A stretch of 64,000 nucleotides of DNA from Formosa algae (GTDB lineage Bacteria > Bacteroidota > Bacteroidia > Flavobacteriales > Flavobacteriaceae), in contig NZ_LMAK01000078.1 in NCBI RefSeq assembly GCF_001439665.1, forward strand, positions 124,001-188,000. Reading direction: 5' to 3'. Each line of letters starts with the position of its first letter. The stretch's first letter is position 1. Below the pieces are notes generated by a model, which had not been told where the DNA came from, did no database searches, and was given only the letters and a program-made list of their open reading frames with translations. This document shows, in pieces, positions 27,049-54,000 of the stretch. The position numbers and the translations under genes are program-made.

Positions 27049-27095
27049 TTGTTTAATTAACTATTAATTAAGAGTTTTGCCGCCGACTAATTCAA
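27049..27095 (+). promoter_or_regulatory. Conserved susC upstream block, copy 1
   Basis: TTG (27049-27051) and GAGTTTTG (27072-27079) are spaced by 20 nt, close to a Bacteroidota promoter. Between them lies TTAATTAACTATTAATTA, as in copies 2 and 3. CTAATTCAA (27087-27095) ends 11 nt before the start codon. The same order of elements precedes all five susC genes. Confidence 0.6.
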
Positions 27096-27106
27096 AATTA
27101 CTAAAA

Positions 27107-30100
27107 ATGAGATCAAAGTTTAGTGGAATTCTAACGCTATTCCTAGCGTTTGTTGTGCAGTTTACTTTTGCACAAGAAAAACTAATTTCGGGGACTGTTT
27201 CCGATGAAAACGGTATACCTCTCCCTGGGGTTAACATTGTTATTAAGGGCACCTCTCAAGGTACTCAGACAGATTTTGACGGAAATTATACAATTTCTTC
27301 AGAGACAGGTAGCACATTATCTTTTTCTTTTATGGGCTACAAAACAACAGAAAAATTGGTTGGAGCTTCTTCCACAATTAATGTGACTTTATTAGAAGAT
27401 TTGGCTGAACTGGATGAAGTTCTTATTGTAGGATATGGTACATCTACATTACGTTCTTTTACAGGTACAGCAACACAAATTGACAGTGAAGCATTAGGGC
27501 GTAAAGCTGTATCTAACGTTTCTCAAGCTTTAGCTGGAGAAGCTGCAGGTGTACGTGTAATTAACACTAGCGGACAACCTGGTGAAGATGCAACAGTGCG
27601 TATTAGAGGTTTTGGTTCTCTTAACGGAAACAGAGATCCGTTATACGTGTTGGACGGTATCCCTTTTACAGGTTCTGTGAACTCAATTAACCCTAACGAC
27701 ATTGAGTCGACTACTATCCTTAAAGATGCCGCTGCAACAGCTATCTACGGTTCTAGAGGAGCAAATGGTGTTATTGTAATTAACACTAAAAAAGGATCTA
27801 AAAACAATTCTGAAATTGAAATAGATTTAAAAACAGGTCAGAACTTTAGTGCTTTACCTCGTTACTCAACTATCTCTTCTCCAGAAGAATATATTGAAAC
27901 AAGCTACGAAGCTCTTAAAAACAGAGGTAGCCTTTTAGGTTACGATGGTACAGCATATGCTAACAGCCTATTATTTAGTAGTACTGGTATTGCTACAGAA
28001 TACAATATGTGGAATGTAGATAGTGGTGCAGATTTAATCGATCCTACTACTGGAAAAGTAATGGATGGTGTGACACGTAAATACGATCCAGAAAACTGGG
28101 AAGATTACGCGTTCCAAGAATCTAACAGAACAGAAGCTAACGTTAAAATTAGTGGTGGTTCAGACAAAACAAGATACTTTACTTCTTTTGGATATTTAAA
28201 CGATGTTGGATATTCTATTAACTCAGACTTCGAGCGTTACTCTGTAAGAGCAAACATAGATCACCAAGCAAAAGATTGGTTATCTGGTAATCTTAATATT
28301 GGTTACACGAATTCTGAAACTAATAATGGTGGACAGTCTGAAGATTCAGGTTCTGTATTCTGGTTTGTAGACAATATTCCATCTATCTATCCTCTATTCT
28401 TAAGAGATGATGACGGAAACAAAATTGACGACCCATATTACGGTGGTTATGTATACGATTACGGTGAAACTCGTGGATTTGGTGGTTTAACAAATGCCAT
28501 TAGTGATGCACACAACTCTATCTCTAACGATGTTGTTCACGAATTAAATGGTAATGCAAGTATTGATATTGCGTTTAACGATGATTTCAAATTAATTAAC
28601 AAATTTGGATGGAACTACAAAAACAGTAATTTCAATAGCCAAGACGGACCATACTACGGACCAAGCGCGTCTCAAAACGGATCTATCTACAAAGAAAGAA
28701 CAGATATTTTTTCTTACAACTTATTAAATATGTTAACCTATAAGAAAAAATTTAACGGCCATGCTTTTGATGCACTTGTTGCACACGAAGCTAACGACTG
28801 GGAAAGAGAATACTTATTTGGTTCTAAATCTTATTTAACAGATCCTAACAGTACAGACTTTAACGATGCTGTTGTACAATCTAACATGTCTTCTTATACT
28901 GAAAGCTATTCTTTAGAAAGTTTCTTTGGACAAGTAAATTACAACTATAACGATACATATTTTGTATCTGGAACATTAAGACGTGATGGTTCTTCAAGAT
29001 TTGAAGACGGAAACAGATGGGGAACATTTGGATCTGTTGGTGCTTCATGGGTTATGTCTAACGAAGACTTTATGTCTAACCAAAACATTTTTAGTTTCTT
29101 AAAACTAAAAGCAAGTTACGGTAAAGTTGGAGATCAAGGTGGTGTAGATTACTACTCTGGAAACGATTTATATACTGTTGGTAATTTAGATGACCAACCT
29201 ACGTTAATTTTCGATACTAAAGGAAACCCAGATTTAGAATGGGAAGTTTCAGATCAGTTCCAAGCTGGTGTAGAATTTTCTTTAGGAAAATATTTAGATG
29301 CTAGTGTAGATTACTACATTAAAGATACAGACAATTTAATCTTTGACAGACGTGTAGGAGCATCTATAGGTTATGCTTTAGTACAAGTAAACGATGGGGC
29401 TCTAAGAGAATCTGGATTAGAATTTGATCTTACAGCTCACCTTGTAAAAAACAAAGATTTTTATCTTGATTTAGGCGTTAACGGAGAAATAACTTCAAAC
29501 GAATTAACACGTATGCCTATCGATCCTGCTACAGGAGAAGAAAAATTATTAGACATTAGTGGTCGATATGGTAGAGCAGAAGGACATTCTATTTACGATT
29601 TTTATGTACGTGAATGGGCTGGTGTAAATTCTGAAACTGGAGAAGCACAATGGAACCAATACTTCTATGATGGAAACGGTAACGGTGTTGTAGACACCGA
29701 TGAAGGTATTTCATCTTTAACAGAATACGAAGCACTTTATCCAGACAGAGAAGTATCTAAAACAACTACAACAACGTATTCAGATGCAACTCAAAAATTC
29801 GTAAATAAATCTATCCTTCCAGATGTAAGAGGTGCTTTCAATATCGCTACAGGCTACAAAGGATTCCAACTTAACGTACAATTCTTATACTCTATTGGTG
29901 GTTACGCATACGATTCTGTTTACGCAGGATTAATGAGCAACACTCAAGTTGGTGGTAACAACTGGCATACAGATATTAGAAACAGATGGCAACAAGCTGG
30001 AGATATTACAGATATCCCAAGATTATCAAGTAATTTAGATCAGAATGTAAATGCTACATCTACAAGATTTATTACTAAAGCAGACTACTTAAGCTTAAAC

Positions 30101-30307
30101 AACATCCGTTTAGCTTACTCTATTCCAGAAACATTTGTTAAGAAAATGGGTATGTCTAACTTCACACTATCATTAACTGGAGACAATTTAGCACTTTGGA
30201 GTGAAAGAGACGGATTTAATCCTTCTGCATCAGAAACTGGAGTATCAGACACATATAGCTACTCTCCTTTAACAACAGTTACTCTTGGTCTTAATGTAAG
30301 ATTCTAA
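27107..30307 (+). CDS. SusC/RagA-type TonB-dependent transporter, pair 1
   Basis: This is an outer-membrane TonB-dependent transporter that forms a lidded complex with the SusD-type lipoprotein encoded just downstream. I start it at 27107 (MRSKFSGILTLFLAFVVQ), not 27077, because this gives a standard signal peptide cleaved before QEK and fits the four paralogues. The order is signal peptide (1-22), a CarboxypepD_reg-like domain (ISGTVSDENGIPLPGVNIVIKG, to about 98), a TonB-box-like DEVLIVGYGT (about 105), a plug with RIRGFGSLNGNRDPLYVLDGIP and LKDAAATAIYGSRGANGVI, and a barrel ending LGLNVRF. There is no STN domain, so ECF-sigma signalling is not expected. The substrate is unknown. Confidence 0.93.
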   Translation: MRSKFSGILTLFLAFVVQFTFAQEKLISGTVSDENGIPLPGVNIVIKGTSQGTQTDFDGNYTISSETGSTLSFSFMGYKTTEKLVGASSTINVTLLEDLAELDEVLIVGYGTSTLRSFTGTATQIDSEALGRKAVSNVSQALAGEAAGVRVINTSGQPGEDATVRIRGFGSLNGNRDPLYVLDGIPFTGSVNSINPNDIESTTILKDAAATAIYGSRGANGVIVINTKKGSKNNSEIEIDLKTGQNFSALPRYSTISSPEEYIETSYEALKNRGSLLGYDGTAYANSLLFSSTGIATEYNMWNVDSGADLIDPTTGKVMDGVTRKYDPENWEDYAFQESNRTEANVKISGGSDKTRYFTSFGYLNDVGYSINSDFERYSVRANIDHQAKDWLSGNLNIGYTNSETNNGGQSEDSGSVFWFVDNIPSIYPLFLRDDDGNKIDDPYYGGYVYDYGETRGFGGLTNAISDAHNSISNDVVHELNGNASIDIAFNDDFKLINKFGWNYKNSNFNSQDGPYYGPSASQNGSIYKERTDIFSYNLLNMLTYKKKFNGHAFDALVAHEANDWEREYLFGSKSYLTDPNSTDFNDAVVQSNMSSYTESYSLESFFGQVNYNYNDTYFVSGTLRRDGSSRFEDGNRWGTFGSVGASWVMSNEDFMSNQNIFSFLKLKASYGKVGDQGGVDYYSGNDLYTVGNLDDQPTLIFDTKGNPDLEWEVSDQFQAGVEFSLGKYLDASVDYYIKDTDNLIFDRRVGASIGYALVQVNDGALRESGLEFDLTAHLVKNKDFYLDLGVNGEITSNELTRMPIDPATGEEKLLDISGRYGRAEGHSIYDFYVREWAGVNSETGEAQWNQYFYDGNGNGVVDTDEGISSLTEYEALYPDREVSKTTTTTYSDATQKFVNKSILPDVRGAFNIATGYKGFQLNVQFLYSIGGYAYDSVYAGLMSNTQVGGNNWHTDIRNRWQQAGDITDIPRLSSNLDQNVNATSTRFITKADYLSLNNIRLAYSIPETFVKKMGMSNFTLSLTGDNLALWSERDGFNPSASETGVSDTYSYSPLTTVTLGLNVRF

Positions 30308-30319
30308 AAAATAATAAAC

Positions 30320-32125: not shown

Positions 32126-32172
32126 TTGTTTTATTAACTTTTAATTAAGATTTTAGTTTCCGACTAATTCAA
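32126..32172 (+). promoter_or_regulatory. Conserved susC upstream block, copy 2
   Basis: ATTATTG (TTG at 32126-32128) is followed by TTTTATTAACTTTTAATTA and AAGATTTTAG, then CTAATTCAA (32164-32172) 11 nt before the start codon. The -7 match is poorer than in copies 1 and 3, although the overall block is clearly the same. Confidence 0.55.
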
Positions 32173-32183
32173 ATCAAATAAAA

Positions 32184-35100
32184 ATGAAAACAAAGTTTAG
32201 TGGAATTCTAACGCTGTTTCTAGCGTTTGTTGTGCAACTAACATTTGCACAAGAGAAATTAATTTCAGGGACTGTTTCAGACGAAGCCGGCCTACCTCTC
32301 CCTGGGGTTAACATTATTATTAAAGGTACCTCTCAAGGTACACAATCCGATTTTGATGGTAATTATACTATTTCTGCAGCAAGCGGAGATGTATTATCAT
32401 TTTCTTTCATGGGTTACAAAACAACAGCAGTTACTGTAGGCGCATCTAGCTCCTTAAACTTAACAATGGCTCAAGACTTATCTGAGCTTGACGAAGTTGT
32501 AGTAACAGCATTAGGTATTAGAAGAGAAGAGAAAGCATTAGGGTATTCTTCTCAATCTGTATCTTCTGAAGAACTTACAACTGTAAGAGATGCAAACATT
32601 GTAAACTCTTTAAGTGGTAAAGTCGCAGGTATTAACGTAACAAACGCTTCTGGAGCTGTAGGTTCTGAAAGTAGAATTGTTATTCGTGGTATCTCTTCTA
32701 TTAGTGGAAACACTCAACCTTTAATTATTGTAGATGGTGTTGTTATGGACAATACAAGTTATGGTGATTCTGGTGCGTATGGAGGTAATAGTACTCCAAA
32801 CGGTATAGCAGATCTTAACCAAGACGATATTGCATCTATGAACGTTTTAAAAGGTGGAGCCGCAACTTCTTTATATGGTATGCGTGGTGCTAATGGTGTA
32901 ATTGTAATTACAACTAAATCAGGAACTACTAAATCTACCCAATTAGGAATAGAGATTTCTAGTAGTGTTAGTTTTGAAAACGCTTATGTATTACCAGAAT
33001 ACCAAAACTCTTACGGACAAGGTTTTGATACTACATATTTTGAATACGTAGATGGTGTAACTGGAGACGGTGGAATTGACGAAAGTTGGGGAGCACCTCT
33101 AGATGCTGGATACGAATTTATTCAATGGGATTCTTTTGATGGTGAAGCTAAACCATGGGTATCTCATCCAGATAATGTTAAAGATTTCTACGAAACAGGG
33201 ATTACAACTAATAACAACATTGCTTTTTCTAAAAGTGGAGACGGTTATAACGGTAGAATCTCTTTGGGTATGACAGATCAAAAAGGTATTATATACAATA
33301 CAGATTTAAGAAAATATAACTTAGGTGGTAAATTAAATTTCGATTTATCTGATAAGTGGAGTGCAGGAATGTCTGTAAATTATATTAAAACAGAAAGTAG
33401 CAACTTACCTTCTTTAGGATATGGAGATGCGAACAACCAAATCGGTCAATTAGTATGGAGTGGACGTAATGTTGATTTCCAAGCTTTAAAAGATTGGAAA
33501 AATCTTCCTTTAGGTTATGCTGCTGGATCTGACACAGCTACTCCAATTAACTGGAACTTAGCATACAACAACAACCCATATTGGGCTTTAGACACAAACA
33601 CAAATACATTTGATAGAAACAGATTATTAGGTAACATAAATATTACTTATCAAATTACAGACGACTTAAGCTTTACTGCTCAAACAGGTATCGATTATTT
33701 CTCTTCTTTAGATACTAAACGAAGAGCATTTGGTACATACGAAAGTACTAGAGGGTCTTATGAAGAAACACAACGTACACGTTACGAAATTAACAGTCAA
33801 GCGATTTTAAACTATAATATTGATATTACTGAAAAATTCAATACAAGTTTAAGCCTTGGAGGACAAACAATGGTAAATAATTATCACCGTTTATACATGG
33901 CAGCTTCAGAATTACAAGTACCAGATGTATATAATATCTCTAACACAAGAGATGGTGTAACACCAAGTTTAGATCAGTCTCAAACAGATCAAAAAATTAA
34001 TTCAGGATTTGGTATCGCTTCATTTTCTTACGACGATGTGGTATTTTTAGATCTTACCGGACGTAATGACTGGGCATCTGTATTACCATCAACAAAAAAC
34101 AGCTTCTTCTACCCTGGTGCTAATTTAAGTGCTATTGTTAGTGATATAGCTAATATGAATAATACATTTTTAAAGCTTAGAGCAGGTTGGGCACAAGTAG
34201 GTAGTTCAGGACCATTATCACCTTACAGTTTAGAACCAGCATATACATTTGGTACAGCTTGGGGAACAACTCCTGTAGCCTCTTCTCCTACTACATTATG
34301 GAATCCAAACATTAAAAATGAAACTACTGAAGAATTTGAAATTGGTTTTGATGCAAGATTCTTTTCTAATCGTTTACGTGTAGACTTTACATACTACGAC
34401 AAAGAAACGTCTGATGTTATTATGGCAAAAGAAATTTCTGGAGCTTCAGGAAACTTATACTTCTGGGACAATGCAGCAACATTAACTAACAAAGGTTACG
34501 AAGTTACTTTAGGTGCCGATATCATTAGAAATGATGGTGACGGATTCAATTTAGGATTCTCTGCAAACTTTGCACGTAACAGAAACAAAGCTCAAGATAT
34601 TGATGATGATCCAACAACAAACAATGGAAGTATTGTTTTAGGTGGACTTTGGAATGTAGATATCCAAGCTAATGAAGGTGAAGCCGTAGGTACAATTTAC
34701 GGTCCTGCTTTTGCAAGAAACGATGATGGAGCTATTATTTACAGTAATGGTTTACCAACTATAGATCCAACAAACCAAGTATTAGGTAACATTAACCCAG
34801 ATTGGACTGGAGGTTTAAATATAGACATGTCTTACAAAAACATCAGATTCTCTACTTTATTTGATGTGAAATGGGGAGGAGATATTTATTCTCAAACAAA
34901 CAGCTGGGGTAACTACGCTGGTGTACTAGCCGAAACATTACCAGGAAGAGAAACTGGTATTATTGGTGAAGGTGTAAAATCTGACGGTAGCGGCGGATGG
35001 GTTGCTAACGATATCGTACAAACTGCATCTACGTATTACGGAACTGTGTATGGTTCTAACATCGGAGAATCTGCAGTATACGACGCTTCTTTTGTGAAGT

Positions 35101-35330
35101 GGAGAGAATTAGCTTTATTCTATGACTTCCCATTAAAGAAATGGGCTAAAACAGGAGTTGATCAATTATCTTTAGGTGTTACAGTACGTAACTTAGCTAT
35201 TTTATACAAGAAAACACCAAACATCGATCCAGAATCTGCATTTAGTAACAGTACTGGAGCACAAGGTTTAGAGTACGCTCAAGTACCTTCTACACGTAGT
35301 ATTGGTATTAACTTAAATGTTAAATTTTAA
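32184..35330 (+). CDS. SusC/RagA-type TonB-dependent transporter, pair 2
   Basis: This is a 1048-residue outer-membrane transporter. It has a signal peptide (MKTKFSGILTLFLAFVVQ, cleaved near FAQ), a CarboxypepD_reg-like domain (ISGTVSDEAGLPLPGVNIII, to about 98) and a TonB-box-like DEVVVTALGIRREEKALGY (about 105-123). The plug has RIVIRGISSISGNTQPLIIVDGVV and LKGGAATSLYGMRGANGVI. The C-terminus is SIGINLNVKF. The TALGI-[RS]RE-x-K-x-LGY form is shared only with the pair 3 transporter, so these two belong to one subgroup. It heads a four-gene operon with a SusD-like protein and two further lipoproteins. The substrate is unknown. Confidence 0.93.
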   Translation: MKTKFSGILTLFLAFVVQLTFAQEKLISGTVSDEAGLPLPGVNIIIKGTSQGTQSDFDGNYTISAASGDVLSFSFMGYKTTAVTVGASSSLNLTMAQDLSELDEVVVTALGIRREEKALGYSSQSVSSEELTTVRDANIVNSLSGKVAGINVTNASGAVGSESRIVIRGISSISGNTQPLIIVDGVVMDNTSYGDSGAYGGNSTPNGIADLNQDDIASMNVLKGGAATSLYGMRGANGVIVITTKSGTTKSTQLGIEISSSVSFENAYVLPEYQNSYGQGFDTTYFEYVDGVTGDGGIDESWGAPLDAGYEFIQWDSFDGEAKPWVSHPDNVKDFYETGITTNNNIAFSKSGDGYNGRISLGMTDQKGIIYNTDLRKYNLGGKLNFDLSDKWSAGMSVNYIKTESSNLPSLGYGDANNQIGQLVWSGRNVDFQALKDWKNLPLGYAAGSDTATPINWNLAYNNNPYWALDTNTNTFDRNRLLGNINITYQITDDLSFTAQTGIDYFSSLDTKRRAFGTYESTRGSYEETQRTRYEINSQAILNYNIDITEKFNTSLSLGGQTMVNNYHRLYMAASELQVPDVYNISNTRDGVTPSLDQSQTDQKINSGFGIASFSYDDVVFLDLTGRNDWASVLPSTKNSFFYPGANLSAIVSDIANMNNTFLKLRAGWAQVGSSGPLSPYSLEPAYTFGTAWGTTPVASSPTTLWNPNIKNETTEEFEIGFDARFFSNRLRVDFTYYDKETSDVIMAKEISGASGNLYFWDNAATLTNKGYEVTLGADIIRNDGDGFNLGFSANFARNRNKAQDIDDDPTTNNGSIVLGGLWNVDIQANEGEAVGTIYGPAFARNDDGAIIYSNGLPTIDPTNQVLGNINPDWTGGLNIDMSYKNIRFSTLFDVKWGGDIYSQTNSWGNYAGVLAETLPGRETGIIGEGVKSDGSGGWVANDIVQTASTYYGTVYGSNIGESAVYDASFVKWRELALFYDFPLKKWAKTGVDQLSLGVTVRNLAILYKKTPNIDPESAFSNSTGAQGLEYAQVPSTRSIGINLNVKF

Positions 35331-36798: not shown

Positions 36799-37668
36799 AT
36801 GAAAAAAATGAAAAATTTATTATATATATGTTTTGTAATGCTAAGTGTACTTAGTTTTACATCATGTCAGGAAACTGATACAGACACTGTAGTAGAAACA
36901 GAAGGAGAAGCAGGTGTTCTTGTTAATGTATCTAACTACTCATCTGGCGCACTATTAGGTTCTCCAGAATCAGGAAAAGAATTAGACGAAGCTTCTATTG
37001 AATTCTCTGAAAGTTATTTAACATTAGTGGTTACTAAGCAATCTGGAGATTTTTCTCAAGGTGTAGAAAGTATTCAAGCTTACAAGTCGCTTAATGGTGG
37101 TGAAGAAATTTTAATCGGATCTTCAGAAAGTTTACCTTTTAGTGTAGAATATACTACTATTGAAGAATTTGTAGATGGAACAGGATTAGATGTTGCAGAT
37201 TTAAGAATTGGAGATTCTTTTAGCTTCATTATTAAAGTGGTTAAAACAGACGGATCTGTATATACATACAACACAAGTATGGGACGTTTTCTTTTAGCTA
37301 TTAACTGTTCTTACGATTTAAACGGAACTTACACCATGACAAACTCTGTTTGTGGTAGTGAAGTAGAAGTTGAAATTTCACAAAATTCTGATGGTACATG
37401 GTACGCTTCAACAGCAGATGGTGGTTTATTACAATATTGTACAACAAACACAACTTTACAAAACTTTGGTAGTTTTGCAGTGTCTTGTGGAGGTATAGTT
37501 GATGCTTCTACAACTGCAGGAGGACCTGACTATTGTGAAGGTGGAGATTATGGTATTGGATGTATTACTGGCGGAACTTGGGATCAAGAAACAGGAATAC
37601 TACAAATGACACACAACGATGCGTTCTTTGGTGTTGGTGCATATACGTCTACATACGTAAGAAAATAA
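36799..37668 (+). CDS. Cysteine-rich surface lipoprotein of the pair 2 operon
   Basis: I do not recognise a named family. The 289-residue protein has a lipoprotein signal with Cys23 (LSFTSCQETDTD), with acidic residues after the cysteine that fit surface export. Residues 30-165 look like an Ig-like or beta-sandwich domain. Residues 170-289 carry seven cysteines (NCSYDL, SVCGSE, QYCTT, VSCGG, DYCEGG, IGCITGG and neighbours), unusual for this proteome and suggesting disulfide bonds in a small C-terminal domain. It sits where SusE/SusF-like binding proteins are found in other SusCD loci, so an accessory substrate-binding role is inferred from position only. Confidence 0.75.
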   Translation: MKKMKNLLYICFVMLSVLSFTSCQETDTDTVVETEGEAGVLVNVSNYSSGALLGSPESGKELDEASIEFSESYLTLVVTKQSGDFSQGVESIQAYKSLNGGEEILIGSSESLPFSVEYTTIEEFVDGTGLDVADLRIGDSFSFIIKVVKTDGSVYTYNTSMGRFLLAINCSYDLNGTYTMTNSVCGSEVEVEISQNSDGTWYASTADGGLLQYCTTNTTLQNFGSFAVSCGGIVDASTTAGGPDYCEGGDYGIGCITGGTWDQETGILQMTHNDAFFGVGAYTSTYVRK

Positions 37669-37702
37669 TTCATAGTAGAATTAAAACTTTAACATATAAA
37701 TT

Positions 37703-38578
37703 ATGAAAAACATATATAAAACTTTTTGTCTATTGGCTTTATCAGGTATAGTGTTTACATCTTGTGAAGATGGAGACGACCATACAGGAGAATCACTAAT
37801 AGAATATACTAATGTTGGAGCAACGGTATCTTCAGCATCACAATCTTATACGGTAAGCGAATCTGATATTCACACATCTGGTGATTACACCATTCCTTAT
37901 ACTGTAACACTTAACGAAGCTGTAACAGCAACTACTATTATTGATTTAATTCAAACAGGTGGTGAAGCAGATAGCGAAGATTACGAAACATCATCTATTA
38001 CTGTAAGTCCAGGTAACACAACAGGAACGGGTTACATTACTGTATTTAGTAACGCTTATGTAGAAGGTACTGAAACTTTAGAATTAACTGCTAAATCTAG
38101 AGCGAACCTAAACATTAACGATTACTCAATTGATATTACAATTGATGACGACTACATTAATGATCAACTTGATTTCCAATTAACTTGGGAAGGTTCTTTC
38201 ACCGGATCTGTAGGTACTGGAGCAGATTTAGTATTAGATTTCTGTGCTATGGATTTTGATATTCTTATTTATGATGAAACTCTAACTGATGTAGGATTTT
38301 ATAATGCAGCAACAGGATCTTGTCCAGAGTCAGCTACATTGTCAGGTTTACCTGATGGATTTTACTATGTAGTTGTAGATTTATACGACAACCCATTATA
38401 TGTATATGAAGGAGGAATAGATGTACCAATTACATTCTCTTGGAGCCAAGATTACTTTGATTCAGTGACAGGTTCTATAACATTAAATGCATATAATACA
38501 GATTCTACTTCTGGAACTTATGCAATTGCTACTATAACTATTGAAGATGGTTACATTTATACAGTACAAGCGTACTAA
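37703..38578 (+). CDS. Surface lipoprotein with Calx-beta-like domain, pair 2 operon
   Basis: This 291-residue lipoprotein has its lipid cysteine at residue 21 (IVFTSCEDGDDHTGES). Residues about 40-145 resemble a Calx-beta or similar adhesion-type beta-sandwich, with YTVSESDIHTSGDYTIPYTVTLNEA and a later GTETLELTAKSR and DITIDDDY. The second half (about 150-291) is another beta-rich domain with FDILIYDETLTDVGFYN and two cysteines. It is the last gene of the operon, followed by a strong terminator. Its role is unknown. Binding of substrate or calcium outside the cell is possible from the fold, but no specific motif shows it. Confidence 0.72.
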   Translation: MKNIYKTFCLLALSGIVFTSCEDGDDHTGESLIEYTNVGATVSSASQSYTVSESDIHTSGDYTIPYTVTLNEAVTATTIIDLIQTGGEADSEDYETSSITVSPGNTTGTGYITVFSNAYVEGTETLELTAKSRANLNINDYSIDITIDDDYINDQLDFQLTWEGSFTGSVGTGADLVLDFCAMDFDILIYDETLTDVGFYNAATGSCPESATLSGLPDGFYYVVVDLYDNPLYVYEGGIDVPITFSWSQDYFDSVTGSITLNAYNTDSTSGTYAIATITIEDGYIYTVQAY

Positions 38579-38602
38579 TTAAAAGCCATATTTAAATATG
38601 AT

Positions 38603-38632
38603 AAAACCACCTTTAACAAGGTGGTTTTTTTT
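38603..38632 (+). terminator. Terminator of the pair 2 operon
   Basis: AAAACCACCTT (38603-38613) pairs with AAGGTGGTTTT (38618-38628) across a 4-nt loop. It is followed by further T residues. Confidence 0.92.
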
Positions 38633-39139
38633 ATATCTACATTTAAAACAAAAAACCAAGGGCAACAACCTCATTCCTATTCTTGGTTAAGAAATTCAAA
38701 AACACCTATTTTTAAGACAAATTAATCACTCAAAATTAAGTATATAAAATAGCCTAAATAAACTCAAAAATCCGAGCACATTTAAAACCCCAAAAACGAT
38801 CAAAAAACAGACCTGCAAACCAATATTATTCAACTTTGATTTTTTGTGCTTAAAAACACTAAAAAACACCTTAGAAATGTTAATTTAAGGTTAAGCAAAT
38901 CACATAAAAATGTTACAATTAGACATCTTGCAGCCAAAATGGGGTCGAAAAAGAATGACAACCGTGTCAAAAAAGGCTAAAACGAATAATAAACACCATA
39001 AAACGGGGGGTTTGGAACTCTTAAAATATTATCAATTTAAAAATTCATTGAGAAATCACTTAAATATTTATTATTTATACTCGAAATATTAGATATTCCT
39101 CAAAAAACACAAAAACATCCAAACTTTAAGTTATTATTA
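38633..39139. other. Intergenic region upstream of susC pair 3
   Basis: This stretch of about 500 nt has no credible gene. A 60-codon open frame at 38910-39092 overlaps the candidate operator, has no recognisable product and was rejected. Other structure is an inverted repeat AACCAAG (38654-38660) / CTTGGTT (38682-38688) and the palindrome at 38956-38969. The end (CCAAACTTTAAG) resembles the pair 2 upstream region. Confidence 0.6.
38956..38969. promoter_or_regulatory. TGACA-N4-TGTCA palindrome upstream of susC pair 3 (candidate operator)
   Basis: TGACAACCGTGTCA lies 241 nt before the susC start codon. It matches the pair 2 copy (TGACAATCGTGTCA) at 13 of 14 positions. The palindrome to TTG distance is 170 nt here and 172 nt at pair 2. 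The DNA between these elements is otherwise mostly diverged. Confidence 0.55.
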
Positions 39140-39186
39140 TTGTTTTATTAACTATTAATTATGAATTTGGTCATTGACTAATTCAA
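39140..39186 (+). promoter_or_regulatory. Conserved susC upstream block, copy 3
   Basis: TTG (39140-39142) is spaced 19 nt from TGAATTTG (39162-39169), which matches five of six fixed bases of TAnnTTTG. CTAATTCAA (39178-39186) ends 10 nt before the start codon. The core TTTTATTAACTATTAATTA is the same as in copies 1 and 2 apart from one base each. Confidence 0.6.
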
Positions 39187-39196
39187 ATAAAATAAA

Positions 39197-42100: not shown

Positions 42101-42403
42101 GAAGCTAACACGTATGCTAACCCTTGGGGATATGCTAGAGCAGCAAATTCACAACACGTTTACGATGCTGGTTATGTTAAACTTAGAGAAGCAACTTTTA
42201 GCTATAGCTTAAAAGATTTAGACAGATTACCATTTACAGGAGTTACTTTCTCTGTAATCGGTAGAAACTTGTGGATTATTGACAAGAGCGTACCTTACTC
42301 AGATCCTGAAGCAGGATTAAGTTCTGGTAATGCTCAAGGATACCAATCTGGTGCATACCCAAGTATTAGAGAAGTTGGTGCAAGTGTTAAATTACAGTTC
42401 TAA
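39197..42403 (+). CDS. SusC/RagA-type TonB-dependent transporter, pair 3
   Basis: This is a 1068-residue transporter. It has a signal peptide MKTKFSGILTLFLAFVVQ, a CarboxypepD_reg-like domain (ISGTVSDPNGLPLPGVNIIV) and a TonB-box-like DEVVVTALGISREKKSLGY (about 105-123). The plug contains VVIRGNSSVAGNNQALFVVDGIPID and LKGAAASALYGSRASNGVI. The barrel ends VGASVKLQF. It groups with the pair 2 transporter by the TALGI motif and by its SusD_like-2 partner. It also shares the upstream palindrome. The substrate cannot be read from sequence. Confidence 0.93.
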   Translation: MKTKFSGILTLFLAFVVQITFAQEKAISGTVSDPNGLPLPGVNIIVKGTTNGTQTDFDGKYSITSATGEILSYSFMGYKTKTVTVGASTTIDVTLEEDLAQLDEVVVTALGISREKKSLGYASQEVDGEAVSKVKAQNFVNSLSGKVAGLNIKPSGTIGGSTNVVIRGNSSVAGNNQALFVVDGIPIDNGNSNSSTQQAGGGGYDYGNAASDINPDDIESINVLKGAAASALYGSRASNGVIMITTKKGKKQKGIGVTINSSVTVGTPDKETLPTYQKKYGAGYGAYYSSSDGYFDLVDVNGDGILDETVVFTEDASYGAEFDPDRLIYQWNSIYPGLDTYQQATPWVAAENDPNTVWTTSSTLINSVDLTGGNEKGTFRLGYTNMMQEGNLPNSSIKRNNISFNGSLNLTEKLTASTSFNFSKTDGKGRYGTGYDSKNPMQQFRQWFQMNVDLKEQKDAYFSTGENITWNSNSVSDTSPIYSDNFYWTRYENYETDTRNRYWGNVVLDYEITDWLSVLGRFTFDTYSELQEERIAVGSVDVSEYSRYNRNVSEYNYDLMLSFNKDLTEKINLSGIAGFNLRQNNTNSIYAVTNGGLNLAGLYALSNSVNSIEAPSEYDATKVVDGEYVQASLGYDNFAFIEGTYRTDRSSSLPIDNNRYDYWSATGSLIFSQLLEADWLSFGKLRGNYGKVGNDTDAYNVFNTYAIGTPFNGGIATNPSAKSNPDLLPEEQTNWEIGLEMQFFQKRFGFDVTYYDALNENQITSVPLSNSTGYTSALLNAGTISNKGWEVTLNVTPIRTENFTWDMNVNWSKNESLVEELTDGIDNLELASFQGGVSINATPGEAYGTIRGTDLTYNENGEPIVGTNGYYVRTSTSNNVIGDINADWKAGLYNSFTYKNFNLSFLIDMQKGGDVFSLDTWYGYATGLYDFTAGTNDLGNPVRNSVADGGGVILPGVQADGSVNTVRAEANTYANPWGYARAANSQHVYDAGYVKLREATFSYSLKDLDRLPFTGVTFSVIGRNLWIIDKSVPYSDPEAGLSSGNAQGYQSGAYPSIREVGASVKLQF

Positions 42404-43969: not shown

Positions 43970-43998
43970 TTGCAAATACATAATTTATTGTACTTTTG
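43970..43998 (+). promoter_or_regulatory. Promoter of rlmB
   Basis: TTG (43970-43972) lies 18 nt upstream of TACTTTTG (43991-43998), a full -7 match. The chosen start codon begins 4 nt after the -7 box, so the mRNA should be leaderless or nearly so. Confidence 0.65.
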
Positions 43999-44002
43999 GT
44001 GC

Positions 44003-44737
44003 ATGGAAAAAGAGACTCAAATTTTTGGTATTCGTGCGGTAATAGAAGCTATTCAATCTGGAGAAAATATCGACAAGGTATTTGTTCAAAAAGGATTGAA
44101 AGGAGAATTATCTCATGAACTAGAAAGTGTATTACGTAAACAACGTATAAACTTCTCTTATGTTCCTGTAGAAAAATTAAATAAACTTACTTCTAAAAAT
44201 CATCAAGGTGTAGTCGCACAAATTGCTCCAATCACATTTTGGGATATTGAAGAGTTAGTTACTAAAGTCACCGAATCTGGAAAAACACCACTATTTCTTT
44301 TGCTAGATCAATTAAGCGATGTTAGAAATTTTGGAGCTATTATTCGTACTGCAGAATGCACAGGTGTAGATGGTATAATTATTCAGAAAAAAGGTGGAGC
44401 TCCTGTTAATGGAGACACCATTAAGACAAGTGCTGGTGCAGTATTTAAAATGCCCATTTGTAAAGTAGACCATATTAAAGATGCCATGTTTTACATGCAA
44501 GCGTCTGGTATAAAAGTTATCGCTGCCACAGAAAAAACAGAAGACTTAATGTACGATGTTTCTTTTACAGAACCTTGCGCAATAATTATGGGATCAGAAG
44601 GTAAAGGTATAAATCCTTCAGTATTAAAATTAGTAGACGCAAAAGCAAAACTACCTTTATTAGGAGAAATTGGATCGCTAAATGTATCTGTTGCTTGTGG
44701 TGCCTTTTTATATGAAGCGTTAAGACAACGTCGCTAG
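44003..44737 (+). CDS. rlmB: 23S rRNA 2'-O-methyltransferase RlmB (SpoU/TrmH family)
   Basis: RlmB methylates a guanosine ribose in domain V of 23S rRNA using S-adenosylmethionine. I use the ATG at 44003 (MEKETQIFGIRAVIEAIQSG). An ATG at 43970 would lie in the -33 promoter box and adds 11 residues with no family match. The 244-residue protein has the N-terminal substrate-binding domain (to about 80). The SPOUT domain has its three motifs: DVRNFGAIIRTAECTGVDG (about 105-123), IIMGSEGKGINP (about 194-205) and LNVSVACGAFLYEALRQRR at the end. A related TrmH-family specificity cannot be fully excluded. Confidence 0.9.
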   Translation: MEKETQIFGIRAVIEAIQSGENIDKVFVQKGLKGELSHELESVLRKQRINFSYVPVEKLNKLTSKNHQGVVAQIAPITFWDIEELVTKVTESGKTPLFLLLDQLSDVRNFGAIIRTAECTGVDGIIIQKKGGAPVNGDTIKTSAGAVFKMPICKVDHIKDAMFYMQASGIKVIAATEKTEDLMYDVSFTEPCAIIMGSEGKGINPSVLKLVDAKAKLPLLGEIGSLNVSVACGAFLYEALRQRR

Positions 44738-45482: not shown

Positions 45483-45530
45483 TTGTGTTATTAACAAATA
45501 ATTATGATTTTCACCATTAGACTAATTCAA
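45483..45530 (+). promoter_or_regulatory. Conserved susC upstream block, copy 4
   Basis: TATTATTG (TTG at 45483-45485) is followed by TGTTATTAAC, AATTATGATTTT and CTAATTCAA (45522-45530), which ends 13 nt before the start codon. The -7 region TATGATTT is only a partial match to TAnnTTTG. Confidence 0.55.
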
Positions 45531-45543
45531 ATTAAAAATAAAC

Positions 45544-48500
45544 ATGAAAACAAAGTTACGTGGTATTCTAACGCTATTTCTAGCGTTTGTTGTGCAATTA
45601 ACGTTTGCACAAGAAAAAACAGTTTCAGGTACGGTTACCGGAGAAGACGGATTACCGTTACCAGGAACTACTATTTCAGTTGTAGGAACATCATCTGGAA
45701 CCTCTACAGATTTTGATGGTAACTATACTATTAAAGCCAGTGCGGGCAGCAAATTAAAATATAGTTTCATGGGATTTATTTCTCAAGAAATTACACTAGG
45801 TATGTCTAATACCATAGATGTTGTATTAAAAGAAGATGCAACATCTCTTGAAGAAGTTGTTGTTGTTGCTTATGGTACTACAACAAAAGAAGCTTTTACA
45901 GGATCTGCAGGAGTTGTAAGTACTAAAGATTTAGACTTACGTCCGTTAAGTTCTCCTATTGGAGCAATCGAAGGTAAAGTTACAGGAGTACAATTCTTAT
46001 CATCTTCTGGACAACCAGGATCTTCTCCTAGTATTGTAATTAGAGGTGTTGGTACTTTAAATGGTAATACAGATCCACTTTTTATTGTAGATGGTATTGC
46101 TTTTGAAGGTGGTTTAGGAACATTAAACCAAGACGATATAGAATCTATGACGGTTCTTAAAGATGCGGCTTCAACGTCACTTTACGGATCTCGTGCTGCA
46201 AATGGTGTTGTAATCATTACAACTAAAAAAGGTAAAAGAGGTAGCGGAATTACAGTAAATGCAACTAGCCAATACGGTGTAATTACAAAAGGTATTAACG
46301 AATACGATGCTGTTAATCCAGGAGAGTACTACGAATTAATGTGGCAATCTTACAAGAATGCTTTAGGTGGTGACGAAGCTGCTGCAATAGAAGCTTCGGC
46401 ATCTATTTACAACCGTTTAGGACGTAATCCTTTTAATGTTGCTAACGACGAGATTGTAGATGTTAATGGAAACTTTAACCCTAACGCACAAATTATCGCA
46501 GAAGACTTAGATTGGTACGGTGCTTTAGAAAGAACTGGATCTAGATCTAGTAACTCTATTAACGTATCTGGTGGGGGTGAAAAACACTCAGTATTTTTAT
46601 CTGTGTCTAACTTAGACGAAAAAGGATATGTTATAGAAAGTGACTATAAAAGAGTAACTAGCCGATTAAGCGGTACTTTTGATGCTGCAGACTGGTTATC
46701 TTTAGGTGGTAATATTAATATCTCTAACGAAAAGTCTCATGGACCTCCTTCTAGAGGTACATCTGTAGCAAACGTATTTGCTTTTGCTAAAAACATGGGA
46801 TCTATTTATTCTCCGTATTTATTAGACCCTACTACAGGTGCTATTTTAAGAGATGAATCAGGAGATGTAATTTGGGATCGTGGTGAAAGTGTTGCATCTT
46901 TAGGCATACCATCTAGACCAACAAGTGTAGGACGTAATGCATTAGAAGAAGCAATTTTAAATAATGAACTTACAACTACAGACAATTACGGATACAGATT
47001 TAATGCAGACTTTAAACCTTTAGACGGACTTAAAGTTAGCTTTATATATGGTCAAGATTACCAAGATGGTGTAAACCAAAGTTACGAAAATGCAGAAGTT
47101 GGTGATGGTGCTCCAACAGGTAGATTCGATGACAACAGATACCAAAGAACTACAGAAAACTTTAATCAAATTATATCTTACAACAAATCGTTTGGTGAGC
47201 ATAATTTTGATTTAACTGCAGGTCATGAAAGTTTTAGTAGAAACTATTCTTCAAACAGAGCTTTTAAAAGCACACAAACTGCAACAGGAATTTATGAATT
47301 AGATAACTTCTCTGTAGTGTTAGATGCCTCAGGTAGTAGTACTGACTATAAATTAGAAGGTTATTTAGCGAGACTAAACTACGACTTTGGTAATAAATAT
47401 TACTTAAGTGCTTCTGTAAGAAGAGATGGATCTTCTGTATTTACAAATAACAAATGGGGTACTTTTTACTCTGTAGGTGGGGCTTGGAGAATAGACCAAG
47501 AAGACTTTATGCAAAACTCTGTTTTTAATAGCTTAAAATTAAGAGCTTCTTACGGTGAAGTTGGTAATGACCAATTAGGATCTTACTACATCTCTCAACC
47601 ATTATATGCTATTTACTCTAACGCAGGTGAGCCTGGTATTTATTGGGACACAACTGGAAATGCAGATTTACAGTGGGAATCTTTAGATAGTTATGATGTT
47701 GCTTTAGAATATGGTTTATTTAACAACCGTATATCTGGTTCTTTTGAGTATTACAAGAAAACAACTTCAGATCTTTTATATAACGTGCCAATCCCTGCTT
47801 CAGAAGGACAAATTGAAGCTCCAGATAACATAGGTGATTTATATAACGAAGGTTTTGAAATTAGCATAAATGCAGCCATAGTACAATCAGATAAATTCTC
47901 TTGGAACTTAGGCTTACAAGCTTCTACTTTAAAAAATGAAATTACATTCCTTCCAGACCCTTTTATTGATGGTTCTAAACGTTGGGAAGCTGGACGTTCT
48001 AGATTTGATTTCTACTTATACGATTATGCAGGTGTAGACTCTAGTAATGGAGACGCATTATTCTACATGTACGAAGAAGTAGGTGACGAAGTAGGTGTTG
48101 CTGTATTAAACGAAGATGGTACTCATGCTACAACTAATAGTTGGGCAGATGCTGGTAAAGGTTATGTAGGTGCTACTGCAGTACCAGATTTAATTGGTTC
48201 TATCTCTAACAGCTTTAGCTACAAAAACTTTGAACTTAACGTATTATTATCTTACCAAATCGGAGGAGATATTTTAGATTATGGTTATGCAGATATGATG
48301 CACTCAGGAACCTACGGAGCATCTTTACATCCAGATGCACTTAAAGCATGGAAAAATCCAGGAGACATTACAGACGTACCACGTTTAGAGAACTCAAACA
48401 CAGATTTATCGCCTAGCTTATCATCAAGATGGTTAACAGATGCGTCTTACTTATCTATTAGAAATGTAAATTTAGCTTATAGCTTAAGTAATAATACTAT

Positions 48501-48669
48501 CGATAAAATAGGATTAGATAAATTAAGATTATTTGTAACAGGAGAAAACTTATTTATGTTTGCTGAGAGAGAAGGATTAAACCCTCAATACAATCTTGCA
48601 GGAACACCTTCTGGAAATGACTATAACCCAAACAGAGTAATCTCGATTGGATTAAACGTCGCTTTTTAA
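45544..48669 (+). CDS. SusC/RagA-type TonB-dependent transporter, pair 4
   Basis: This is a 1041-residue transporter. It has a signal peptide MKTKLRGILTLFLAFVVQ, a CarboxypepD_reg-like domain (VSGTVTGEDGLPLPGTTISVVGT) and a TonB-box-like EEVVVVAYGTTTKEAFTGS (about 103-121). The plug contains IVIRGVGTLNGNTDPLFIVDGIAFEGG and LKDAASTSLYGSRAANGVVIITTKKG. The barrel ends VISIGLNVAF. It belongs with pair 1 by its plug sequence and classical SusD partner. It has no STN domain. Confidence 0.93.
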   Translation: MKTKLRGILTLFLAFVVQLTFAQEKTVSGTVTGEDGLPLPGTTISVVGTSSGTSTDFDGNYTIKASAGSKLKYSFMGFISQEITLGMSNTIDVVLKEDATSLEEVVVVAYGTTTKEAFTGSAGVVSTKDLDLRPLSSPIGAIEGKVTGVQFLSSSGQPGSSPSIVIRGVGTLNGNTDPLFIVDGIAFEGGLGTLNQDDIESMTVLKDAASTSLYGSRAANGVVIITTKKGKRGSGITVNATSQYGVITKGINEYDAVNPGEYYELMWQSYKNALGGDEAAAIEASASIYNRLGRNPFNVANDEIVDVNGNFNPNAQIIAEDLDWYGALERTGSRSSNSINVSGGGEKHSVFLSVSNLDEKGYVIESDYKRVTSRLSGTFDAADWLSLGGNINISNEKSHGPPSRGTSVANVFAFAKNMGSIYSPYLLDPTTGAILRDESGDVIWDRGESVASLGIPSRPTSVGRNALEEAILNNELTTTDNYGYRFNADFKPLDGLKVSFIYGQDYQDGVNQSYENAEVGDGAPTGRFDDNRYQRTTENFNQIISYNKSFGEHNFDLTAGHESFSRNYSSNRAFKSTQTATGIYELDNFSVVLDASGSSTDYKLEGYLARLNYDFGNKYYLSASVRRDGSSVFTNNKWGTFYSVGGAWRIDQEDFMQNSVFNSLKLRASYGEVGNDQLGSYYISQPLYAIYSNAGEPGIYWDTTGNADLQWESLDSYDVALEYGLFNNRISGSFEYYKKTTSDLLYNVPIPASEGQIEAPDNIGDLYNEGFEISINAAIVQSDKFSWNLGLQASTLKNEITFLPDPFIDGSKRWEAGRSRFDFYLYDYAGVDSSNGDALFYMYEEVGDEVGVAVLNEDGTHATTNSWADAGKGYVGATAVPDLIGSISNSFSYKNFELNVLLSYQIGGDILDYGYADMMHSGTYGASLHPDALKAWKNPGDITDVPRLENSNTDLSPSLSSRWLTDASYLSIRNVNLAYSLSNNTIDKIGLDKLRLFVTGENLFMFAEREGLNPQYNLAGTPSGNDYNPNRVISIGLNVAF

Positions 48670-50474: not shown

Positions 50475-50498
50475 TATTTAATTAGTCATTAAATACTT

Positions 50499-50528
50499 AA
50501 ACCACCTCTTTTTGAGGTGGTTTTTTTA
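50499..50528 (+). terminator. Terminator of SusCD pair 4
   Basis: AAACCACCTC (50499-50508) pairs with GAGGTGGTTT (50514-50523) across a 5-nt T loop and is followed by a T-run. It lies 180 nt after the susD stop, so the transcript would have a long 3' end that includes the possible remnant. Confidence 0.9.
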
Positions 50529-51017: not shown

Positions 51018-51064
51018 TTGTATTATTAACAAAAAATTATGATTTTAGATACAACCTAATTCAA
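51018..51064 (+). promoter_or_regulatory. Conserved susC upstream block, copy 5 (most diverged)
   Basis: TTG (51018-51020), TATTATTAAC, AATTATGATTTTAG (to 51048) and CTAATTCAA (51056-51064) keep the order of the other copies, with a shorter TTG to TATGAT spacing (17 nt). CTAATTCAA ends 10 nt before the start codon. Confidence 0.5.
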
Positions 51065-51074
51065 CTATAATCAT

Positions 51075-54000
51075 ATGAAAAAAAAAGCTTGCGGAGTTTT
51101 AACACTTCTACTGTTCTTTATGCATTTTACATATGCACAACAAAAAACAATTACAGGTTCGATAACAGGACCAGATGATTTACCATTACCCGGCACATCC
51201 ATCATGGTTAAAGGATCTACATCTGGAACATCTTCAGACTTCGATGGAAACTATTCCATTTTAGCTTCACCTGGACAAACTATTATATTCAGTTTTGTGG
51301 GGTACAAACCCCAAGAAAAAATAGTGGGTACTTCTAACACCATTAACGTTACTTTAGAAGAGGACGCTTCTGCTTTAGACGAAATAGTATTAATGGGGTA
51401 TACTAAAACTAGTCGAACAGAACTTACGGGATCTACAGTGCAATTAAACAATGAAGATTTTGAACAAGTTCCTGTTTCAACCATAGACCAAGTACTTCAA
51501 GGAAAAGTAGCTGGTTTAACCTTTAACGTAAACTCTGGTACTCCTGGATCTACTTCAGATATTAGAATTAGAGGTAGAAGTTCTCTAACTGCTGGAAATG
51601 ATCCATTATATGTTATAGATGGTGTACCGGTTTCTAGTACAGCTGCCAATAGCACCACTTCTGGATCTACATTTTCTCCTCTTGCTTCTATTAACTCTAA
51701 CAACGTAGAAAGTATAACCGTATTAAAAGATGCTTCAGCTACGGCTGCCTATGGTGCACGTGGAACAAATGGTGTAATTGTAATTACAACTAAAAATGGA
51801 AAATCTGGAAAAACAACCTTCAACTTTAATTCTTCTTACGGATTTTCTAACGATGCTGTAGATGGACCACAAGTATTAACTGGGGCAGAAAGAGAAACGT
51901 TATACTACGAGGGTGTTTTTAATACTTACGGAGAATCTTATGGTTTTGACTTAGCAGGCGCACAAGCTTTTAGTGAAGCTAATAATTTAGATGGTGGTGT
52001 ATATACAGCTTGGAATGCTGCTGGACGTCCAGAGGCAAACTGGGAAGATGTTATTACAAATAAAGATGCTCCTTTAATGGAATACAATATTTCTGCCAGT
52101 GGTGGAGATGAGACCTACAACTTCTTTACATCATTAGGGTATTATGACCAAGAAGCTACAGTAATTGGATCTGATTTTCAAAGATTCACTGGTCAAGTAA
52201 ATTTATCTAAAGATTTCTCAGACAAAATTACATTTACTACAAGAAACTCAGGGTCGTATTCTTATCAAGATGGTTTATTAGAAACGAGTGCTTATTTTTC
52301 TTCACCTAGAGCCGTTAAATTCTTTATGCCTCCTACAGATCAACCTTATGATGATGCAGGAAATATAAATTTAGATACTTCACTACCAAATCCACTTTGG
52401 ATTGCACAAGAAGATATAGACGATTCTAAATTTACAAGAATTACATCTAACAACTCATTAAACTGGGAATTACCAATACCTAACCTAACATTTAACACGA
52501 CTGTTGCTATAGACTTACAATTATATAACTACAAGAGATATCGTAACCGAGTAGACGGAGATGGTGCCTCTACAAATGGTTATGGATGGCAGTCTAATAG
52601 CACAAGAACTAATTATGTGTTCCAAAACAATTTAGATTACTTACTAAATATTAATGACGACCATAGTTTAAACTTTAAAGCGTTACAAGAATTTCAGAAA
52701 AACAGATATAATTATTTAGAAGCTGATGCTGAAAACTTTGCTGATGATGGCTTAACAAATCTAAACTCTGCAGGTACACCTACTACAGCGAATTCTTATT
52801 TTACGGATTGGGCAGTAGCTTCATACACAGGATTAATGCACTATAGTGGTTACCAAGGAAAATATGTTTTAGACGGAACCATTCGTAGAGAAGGAAACTC
52901 AAGATTTGATGCGTCTGATAGATGGGGAACTTTCTGGTCTGTGGGAGCAGCTTATAACATGCAAAAAGAAGCCTTTTTAGCAAATTCTTCGTGGTTAAGC
53001 ACCTTAAAATTAAGAGGATCTTATGGTTTAACAGGTAATGCTAATATTTCTATTAACCAATACCAATCCCTTCTTGGATATGATGGAGATTACAACGGAA
53101 CCTCTGCCATTTACTTAGATACTTTTGGAGCAGATGGACTATCTTGGGAAACGTCTAAATCTTTAGATCTTGGTATAGATTTAGGTTTTTTTAATAATAG
53201 AATTACAACGAACCTGACTTACTATAGAAGAGTTACAGAAGACATGCTTCTTAATGTTAACTTACCGTATACTTCTGGTTTCTCTTCGCAAATTGCGAAT
53301 GTTGGGGAAATGGAAAACAAAGGATTTGAATTTGAATTAAATGCAGATGTTTATCGTTCAGAAAAAGTAAGCATTTCTTTTGGAGGAAACTTAGCCACTA
53401 ACGAAAATGAAGTTCTAAAAATGTACGAAGACAACTCGGGAGAAGAAACTGTAATTAGCGGAACAACTCAAAGAGTAGAATCTGGTCATCCAGCATATGG
53501 CTGGTATATGGTTACATCGGCAGGTGTAGACACCGAAACGGGTGATGAATTATATTACATAGATGGCAAAGGAAGTGAAACTACTAATGATTATAATGCC
53601 GCTAATCAAGCTTGGCAAGGCGGAAGTGCTTTACCAACAATTACTGCAGGAATTTATGTAAACATAGAAGCATATAATTTCTTTTTAAATGTGTCTTCTT
53701 ATTATGCTGGCGGACATAAAGTTTACGAAGACTGGGCGAGATACACTAACGGAACGGATTTATTTACCACCTTATACTATCAAGGAGTAGACGCTATTTT
53801 AGACAGATGGCAAGAACCTGGAGACGAAGCACGTTTTGGTAAAATGAGATATGCAACCACAGCATGGCAACAAAATAGTAAATTTTTATACGATGGAGAT
53901 TTCTTTAGAATTAAAGATATAACGTTTGGATACAACCTACCTGAAAGCGTTAATTCTATTGCAGGCTTACAATCTGCTCGAATTTTTGTTAAAGCAACAA

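Follow-up and report, generated by a model that had tools for sequence, protein, structure and literature searches.

A conserved promoter-leader-hairpin module before the susC genes of a Formosa algae receptor array, with candidate RNA partners

In a 64,000-nucleotide stretch of Formosa algae DNA (contig NZ_LMAK01000078.1, positions 124,001 to 188,000 of the forward strand; the whole stretch is called the window here) five susC genes are each preceded by the same block of promoter and leader, which holds the 9-base box CTAATTCAA. The block is real and beyond chance. Within the family Flavobacteriaceae it is conserved with fixed spacing, it is followed by a covarying hairpin (H1) inside the coding region, and the same module stands before unrelated receptors, mostly at one locus. 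From these sequences we infer the transcription start, the action of H1 as RNA and a mechanism in which the box is paired by RNAs from the 3' untranslated regions (3'UTRs) of other genes. This pairing is our favoured, unproven explanation; the reading as a whole, a shared promoter-leader-hairpin module whose leader box is paired by 3'UTR RNAs, is held tentatively, as having a little under an even chance of being right.

The block and its promoter

The five copies, all on the forward strand, were found where a preliminary description of this DNA had placed the same ordered elements. Block 1 (27049-27106) opens with TTG at 27049-27051 and continues with the TTAAC core, the -7 element GAGTTTTG (27072-27079) and the box (27087-27095), the ATG following at 27107. 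The succession of TTG, TTATTAAC, -7 element and box recurs in block 2 (32126-32183; GATTTTAG at 32149-32156, box at 32164-32172, ATG at 32184), block 3 (39140-39196; GAATTTGG at 39163-39170, box at 39178-39186, ATG at 39197), block 4 (45483-45543; GATTTTCA at 45506-45513, box at 45522-45530, ATG at 45544) and block 5, the most diverged (51018-51074; GATTTTAG at 51041-51048, box at 51056-51064, ATG at 51075). The core is thus exactly TTATTAAC in four of the five copies and TTTAATTAAC in copy 1. The distance from TTG to CTAATTCAA is 38, 38, 38, 39 and 38 nucleotides (nt) in copies 1 to 5, and the gap between the end of the box and the ATG is 11, 11, 10, 13 and 10 nt; the former is near constant and the latter spans 3 nt, so that the box keeps its distance to the promoter and not to the start codon. 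Two extra copies of CTAATTCAA on the forward strand of the window, at 5433 and 12135, both lie within open reading frames (ORFs) of the minus strand.

The genome from which the window was taken comprises 4.29 Mb in 82 contigs and holds 29 SusC genes that pass the TIGR04056 cut-off; a contig end truncates one of these, and another has an inner stop. The box lies upstream of the five window genes; in the stretches taken for the remaining genes, about 0.6 to 1.3 kb ahead of the profile match, it is found before none of the other 24 and before none of 16 control genes with partial matches. A general susC leader is thereby ruled out, and the proposal that the box is common to all pairs holds for this array and not for susC genes at large. 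Searching the genome with R1, a sequence-only profile of the block built from 32 rows, returned the five window blocks at expect values (E) <= 2.5e-9 and the next match at E 0.10. The box alone at 9-14 nt before an ATG gave 22 hits against 7 for the reversed control; five of them are the window blocks, and among the other 17 (two at one place) only L263 and L270 open frames of more than 100 codons.

Across the family, R1 detects the block in 170 of the 199 genomes at E 0.01, many of the 29 genomes without it being small, and the exact pattern TTATTAAC-N23..27-CTAATTCAA, which fixes 17 letters, occurs in 81 of the 199 against 4 for its reversed control. At the level of the order, 48 of 196 genomes match the profile, 28 of which belong to the same family; outside the family these 196 genomes yielded no convincing block (best E 3.1e-4). 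Nearly all exact-pattern loci (29 of 30) run into a SusC-type start, the remaining one (L065) being a chance hit that was dropped, and all 40 inexact profile hits that were fetched precede such a start, these being strong hits and a sample not free of selection. Among the matches listed for a stricter pattern are Kordia, Maribacter, Muricauda, Robiginitalea, Formosa and Flavobacterium johnsoniae.

Promoter geometry was derived from 92 copies in 79 genomes, collected with a loose pattern that fixes TTG, TTAA[CG] and TAA[TC]TCAA. TTG-N20-[GC]ANTTT is present in 91 of them, and the box, counted from its T, follows [GC]ANTTT after 10 nt in 82 copies, after 9 in 7 and after 11 in 2; TTG was part of the selection pattern, yet it is also invariant in the 32 R1 rows, which were not selected for it. 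Around the box, the letters A, T, A and A that come right after it are kept in 91, 88, 82 and 87 of the 92 copies, and the two letters before it are purines, in 92 of 92 copies at the position two before the box and in 91 of 92 at the other. The earlier statement that the flanking bases differ was therefore correct in part, the following ATAA and the preceding purines being strongly kept.

In the numbering of F. johnsoniae promoters, as given in the promoter passages of the source (PMC6847099), TTG occupies -35 to -33 and [GC]ANTTTNG -12 to -5. At -12, 91 of 92 copies carry G or C, A at -11 and T at -8 and -7 are each kept in 91 of 92 and G at -5 in 89 of 91, and T at -6 is found in only 75 of 91. 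Compared with the Bacteroidetes housekeeping (sigma-ABfr) promoter the block thus has the -33 TTG at its proper distance from the -7 element and lacks the -7 box TANNTTTG with its near-invariant T-12. The same passages describe T-12 as near invariant and the -33 element as weak in F. johnsoniae, so that the block promoters reverse the pattern, with the -33 TTG constant and T-12 nearly always absent. The proposal that the first part of the block is a promoter with a variable -7 box is right, the -7 box being off-consensus.

Transcription in F. johnsoniae is reported in that part of the source to start 4-5 nt past the -7 box (PMC6847099). In copies of the standard spacing, 5 nt past the -7 box is the second position ahead of CTAATTCAA, a purine in all 92 copies. 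The message is therefore predicted to begin there with (G/A)(A/G)CUAAUUCAA, which would place the box at the 5' end of the mRNA. The leader would then be about 22 nt long; the median stated for F. psychrophilum is 24 nt (PMC9723704). The leaders, which are of the type CTAATTCAAATAATTATAAAATG, have no Shine-Dalgarno site in the form of a GGAGG-like purine run 7-9 nt before the start codon. The preliminary description had seen the box near the position of a ribosome-binding site, a view not supported by its fixed distance to the promoter and its place at the predicted mRNA 5' end.

A purely transcriptional account would take the TTAAC core and CTAATTCAA as DNA sites of one regulator, lying on either side of the promoter and offsetting its poor -7 box. 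It would agree with the spacing of the box to the promoter instead of the ATG, and with the absence from 91 of 92 copies of a T-12 that is near invariant in F. johnsoniae (PMC6847099, promoter passages); however, it leaves the coding hairpin, the conservation of rare codons and the complements of the box, all described below, unexplained, no regulator gene was found among ten window proteins scanned, and no clear dyad was seen in the 9-letter box. We consider this account unlikely.

A hairpin within the signal-peptide codons

The conservation of the block runs on into the coding region, which the preliminary description had missed. In a set of one copy per genome (79 genomes) rare codons are kept at fixed places: ACG at codon 10 (95% of 76 Thr, background 7%), GCG at codon 14 (97% of 75 Ala, background 7%) and GTG at codon 17 (99% of 74 Val, background 8%), along with AGT at codon 6 (98% of 57, background 24%) and GGA at codon 7 (99% of 77, background 32%). 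Third-position identity falls from 0.79 in codons 2-9 to 0.42 in codons 25-36.

Codons 9-15 form the hairpin H1 with the stem AACGCUA/UAGCGUU, which starts at nt 27 of the coding sequence and corresponds to columns 27-44 of A2, a gapless alignment of 108 copies from which window copy 5 and L180 were dropped for codon gaps. On the forward strand of the window H1 lies at 27133-27150 in susC1, 32210-32227 in susC2, 39223-39240 in susC3 and 45570-45587 in susC4. A second hairpin with weaker evidence, H2, covers codons 16-23 (27154-27174 in susC1 and, in the same columns, 32231-32251, 39244-39264 and 45591-45611 in copies 2-4); the kept codons 3, 6 and 7 lie outside both stems.

H1 is paired in 94.7% of 756 cells, and registers slid along the alignment reach 23-47%. 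Double changes that keep a pair occupy 40 cells in six of the seven pairs against 5.5 in shuffles, none of 500 shuffles being as high, where cells count sequences and not independent events. H1 hence shows compensatory changes beyond both shuffles and slid registers, as a conserved hairpin under selection should. Some paired changes alter the amino acids on both sides, giving the stems UAGUACU/AGUACUA, UUAGCAAU/AUUGCUAA and AACACUA/UAGUGUU. Stems of quite different sequence are therefore kept, indicating that structure is conserved rather than sequence; for the same reason H1 is unlikely to be a DNA palindrome for a sequence-specific regulator. RNAalifold recovers H1 de novo, together with three pairs of H2, for which 14 double-change cells were counted, but the register slid by -2 gives similar covariation. 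Compared with synonymous shuffles the start of the coding region folds stably in the 108 copies (mean z -3.94) and less so in the 24 other susC genes of the window genome (mean z -1.11). Two block-free susC genes of that genome, L016 (z -6.5) and L005 (z -4.4), also have unusually stable folds at the start of their coding region.

Scanning 26900-56500 of the window against Rfam gave nothing at gathering score and no match at the blocks. The sole match, Phe_leader at 38573-38634 (34.3 bits against a gathering score of 55, E 0.031), lies upstream of block 3 and is probably due to chance or to a terminator-like hairpin. H1 is a covarying hairpin with no match in Rfam 15, located within a region coding for a signal peptide, where the codons and even the amino acids follow the stem.

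Intrinsic tuning of translation would make the leader an enhancer that acts without a Shine-Dalgarno sequence and H1 a downstream hairpin that holds back the first ribosomes, no factor acting in trans being involved. F. johnsoniae does without Shine-Dalgarno sequences, its initiation being tuned by letters and structure of the leader, according to the sections of PMC6847099 that deal with it, and both the A/U-rich leader and the position of H1 in the message agree with such tuning. A generic enhancer, however, should not require an exact 9-base word that is near-unique to one group of genes, and we hold this account to be somewhat less likely than the transcriptional one.

Complements of the box, receptor tree and locus

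Six genomes of the window genus each contain 8-13 sites of TTTGAATTAGYC, the complement of the box, compared with 1-3 for the reversed control; four of these sites in the window genome, two in the genome G014 and, judged by position, some in the other four are blocks themselves. Of 40 site loci fetched from the genus, 30 have the site in an intergenic region, and a terminator follows on the same strand within 69 nt at 10 of these 30 as compared with 45 of 1012 control positions, orthologous and duplicated sites being included so that the sites are not independent. Twenty loci from other genera contained four intergenic complements with a terminator.

Family-wide, the pattern TTTGAATTAGYY-N15..45-T6 is present in 113 of 199 genomes, in some of them only through blocks, and that of a permuted word in 30 of 199. 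Twelve places among the matches listed for TTTGAATTAGYY are blocks and were excluded from the later counts; one place (G033:C12) was left out of the terminator counts, and two identical G014 places were counted once. Among the matches listed, a strong terminator accompanies 36 of 101 non-block rows against 5 of 34 for the permuted word (p 0.03). The terminator criterion of the locus counts for the window genus and the other genera differs from that used for letter fit and upstream frames, and sites in G012, G007 and G006 entered the letter-fit count and were kept out of the comparison with the permuted word.

At 24 of 28 terminator-bearing sites an upstream frame ends 5-195 nt before the word, and at none does it end inside the word, so the words are not mere stop-codon ends of genes; the other four (L416, L423, L467 and L480) have no upstream frame within 200 nt. 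As many of the upstream frames run off the fetched stretch, they are frames and not proven genes. Nineteen were compared with Pfam. Seven have no match at E 0.001, two have matches below the cut-off, and the matches above it are to FecR_C, PDZ, redoxin/thioredoxin, HmuY, an outer-membrane barrel, SusD (two frames), TonB_C, an oxidoreductase and ankyrin repeats. The word at L470, one of the SusD sites, belongs to the GTT class, for which none of the leaders known here is a fit. In a subset chosen after the table had been seen, the variable letter of the word agrees with the leader of the same genome: GAC leaders go with GTC words in 8 cases and GGC leaders with GCC words in 6, and no GTC/GCC discordance occurs there (14 of 14).

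An RNA-binding protein, for instance of the RbpB type, could recognise the single-stranded box and H1 as a composite site. RbpB binds the 5' region of a susC mRNA in Bacteroides thetaiotaomicron (PMC11697453), and such a protein would suit a hairpin kept in structure rather than in sequence, but the findings on complements would be left unexplained, and we regard this account as improbable.

Several sites resemble the box or its complement outside the blocks. At G000:C67:231627 in the window genome (L404/L270) GACTAATTCAAA directly adjoins the ATG of a lipoprotein-like gene that lacks the promoter block. It also recurs at a similar intergenic place in five genomes of the window genus (L397, L410, L418, L431 and L436), in L397 located 7 nt after a canonical -7 box TAATTTTG; the downstream frame at this place is not conserved, L410 stopping early, and the place may serve as a further target or give rise to a decoy RNA. 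In five genomes (L403, L407, L424, L427 and L435) a sense box is kept between a terminator and a gene with the last codons DDLPF, presumably ssb-like. Box and complement face each other about 40-50 nt apart at G072:C43:124584-124647 and L415, and the element TTTGAATTAGTC-N3..4-GCAGATTG recurs in G072, G019 and G125.

The receptors behind the blocks lie on the forward strand at 27107-30307 (susC1), 32184-35330 (susC2), 39197-42403 (susC3), 45544-48669 (susC4) and 51075-54125 (susC5, the copy that lacks H1). Most pairwise alignments of these SusC proteins give 28-38% identity, and the best alignment of copies 1 and 3 is one stretch of 244-252 residues at 55%; the signal peptide is near identical in copies 1-4, and the block is common to all five. 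A tree was built from 44 barrels, 21 with the block (5 from the window and 16 hand-picked from other family genomes) and 23 of the window genome without it, L201 (<750 amino acids) having been dropped. The block label changes 7 times on this tree, at least 6 of the changes being forced by well-supported branches, compared with 14.9 in shuffles, and a block-free SusC of the window genome (L214) is sister to the block-bearing L229 of G036 at 100/100. On this tree the block clusters without a single origin, and the receptors that carry it appear polyphyletic.

The array is bordered on the left by the gene for EF-G (22112-24238, minus strand), a conserved neighbour, and by a frequent one on the forward strand at 25295-26983 for a probable outer-membrane protein, labelled omp85, with a ShlB-like match below the Pfam cut-off. 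A SpoU-family rRNA methylase gene (43970-44737, forward strand), which we take to be rlmB, separates pairs 3 and 4 in the window, and the right border is formed by genes for a rhomboid protease (55681-56475, minus strand) and an MgsA/RarA-like AAA ATPase (56584-57861, forward strand). A survey of 20 regions of about 20 kb found EF-G or the rRNA methylase near the array in 18 and neither in L245 and L251, the usual order being EF-G, the omp85-like gene, a variable number of block-susCD units, methylase, rhomboid and RarA-like ATPase. Tree and survey together indicate that the module stays constant while the receptors behind it are exchanged, in most cases at a single conserved locus. Two side features were seen: following susD2 at 36799-38578 there are two ORFs of 289 and 291 amino acids with lipoprotein-like starts and no Pfam match above the cut-off, relatives of which occur in G014 (80-82%) and, weakly, in G044; and G000:C7:164982-167864 is a full-length SusC match with one in-frame TAA.

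Copies from one genome are no more alike than copies from different genomes (promoter 0.72 within and 0.74 between genomes, first 54 coding bases 0.81 and 0.84; 20 within-genome pairs), giving no sign of concerted evolution or gene conversion. Keeping the block mainly as a homologous anchor for swapping receptors into the array, an idea prompted by the same 5' module before unrelated barrels at mostly one locus, is very improbable, in view of this lack of homogenisation and of paired changes in H1 that alter amino acids and suggest another function.

The favoured mechanism and known systems

On the favoured reading each susC of the array would carry an expression module of about 110 bases, present in reduced form in copy 5. 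It would consist of a housekeeping-type promoter with the invariant -33 TTG, the TTAAC spacer motif and the off-consensus -7 element [G/C]ANTTTNG in place of TANNTTTG, of the short leader with (G/A)(A/G)CUAAUUCAA as its first bases, and of the hairpin within the signal-peptide codons. The leader box is most likely an accessible pairing site for RNAs that end in UUUGAAUUAGYC and a terminator, and these partners would derive from 3'UTRs of other genes, envelope genes among them. By binding about 10 to 20 nt 5' of the AUG they would impede the loading of ribosomes. H1 would maintain an open start region or pace the first ribosomes, and one control input could act on whichever receptors fill the array. 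A role at the RNA level, whether as a translation enhancer or as a target of a small RNA or a protein, as raised beforehand, is likely and gains support from H1 and from the complements downstream of other genes.

A number of observations weigh against this reading. At 8 of the 30 intergenic sites of the window genus a terminator lies on the opposite strand, the window genome yielded one terminator-bearing intergenic complement (L401), and the share of terminators exceeds that of the permuted word only modestly. The perfect letter fit belongs to the subset chosen afterwards: over all classes the fit is 17 of 33 terminator-bearing sites in genomes with a known leader, the 16 misfits comprising 12 of the GTT class, 1 GCT, 2 GTC and 1 GCC, and in genomes whose sole leader is of the AGC type 1 of 9 sites fits. 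Sites without a detected terminator show the same letter tendency, if weaker (14, 2, 1, 4), and related genera are not independent. As to the hairpin, window copy 5 has the box and no H1 (z -0.5), and 4 of the 108 copies (G014 copy 1, G314, G251 and G259) have 3-4 broken H1 pairs. G-U cells abound in H1 (37, 16 and 10 in three pairs), as against 3 C-A cells. Such an excess is in keeping with sense RNA but is weak evidence for it because the G-U columns 27, 33 and 39 are third codon positions. Pairing between leader and codons 5-6 (ACUAA with UUAGU), seen by RNAalifold and in the folds of copies 2 and 3, copy 1 folding otherwise, was rejected as it is not kept in the genus g127. Finally, polyphyly of the receptors can also result from repeated loss of the block.

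Extended to the family, the favoured reading becomes a circuit in which whatever SusC enters the EF-G/rlmB/rarA locus is placed under a single module, and 3'UTR RNAs, several from envelope genes (matches to SusD, FecR, TonB, HmuY and a barrel), pair with all the mRNA 5' ends. We hold this wider form to be doubtful, though a possibility worth stating. If it were true, the array should go down when the genes that supply the 3'UTRs are highly expressed, and leader and 3'UTR words should co-evolve. The findings as a whole show a way in which a large family of bacteria that feed on polymers and peptides may hold control constant while swapping nutrient receptors, and they offer a concrete candidate for RNA-RNA pairing in a group whose post-transcriptional regulation is little known.

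By titles and the starts of abstracts, the open-access literature in PubMed Central yielded no description of block, hairpin or complement, and none of the listed papers that contain the sequence words concerns it. The rag locus (RagAB) of Porphyromonas gingivalis reportedly exchanges alleles at one locus and resembles the array in that different SusC/SusD-type receptors occupy one chromosomal place. We know of no shared promoter-leader-hairpin module at rag.

The block promoter resembles the Bacteroidetes housekeeping promoter TTTG/TANNTTTG in its TTG at -33, A-11, T-8, T-7 and G-5, and it is unlike that promoter in G or C at -12, in a looser T-6 and in the constancy of a -33 TTG that is weak in F. 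johnsoniae (PMC6847099 and PMC9723704, promoter passages). In F. psychrophilum the SusCD pair THC0290_2100/2101, with homologues in the whole family, is up in freshwater and its cluster also in stationary phase, according to the passages on this pair in PMC9723704; its locus numbers are near that of the rhomboid protease gene THC0290_2103, a neighbourhood like that of the window array. The main text of PMC9723704 contains neither CTAATTCAA nor TTATTAAC.

A close parallel in mechanism is found in B. thetaiotaomicron, where FopS small RNAs act on the start region of a susC mRNA to prevent its translation and bind others in vitro, RbpB counteracting them (PMC11697453). Unlike in the FopS system, the same target word is present in all members here, at the predicted mRNA 5' end, the coding hairpin covaries, the candidate partners are ends of 3'UTRs, and the family is Flavobacteriaceae. 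What the candidate module would share with FopS and RbpB is post-transcriptional control of susC at the start of translation by RNAs of a multicopy family, with several susC mRNAs under a common regulator.

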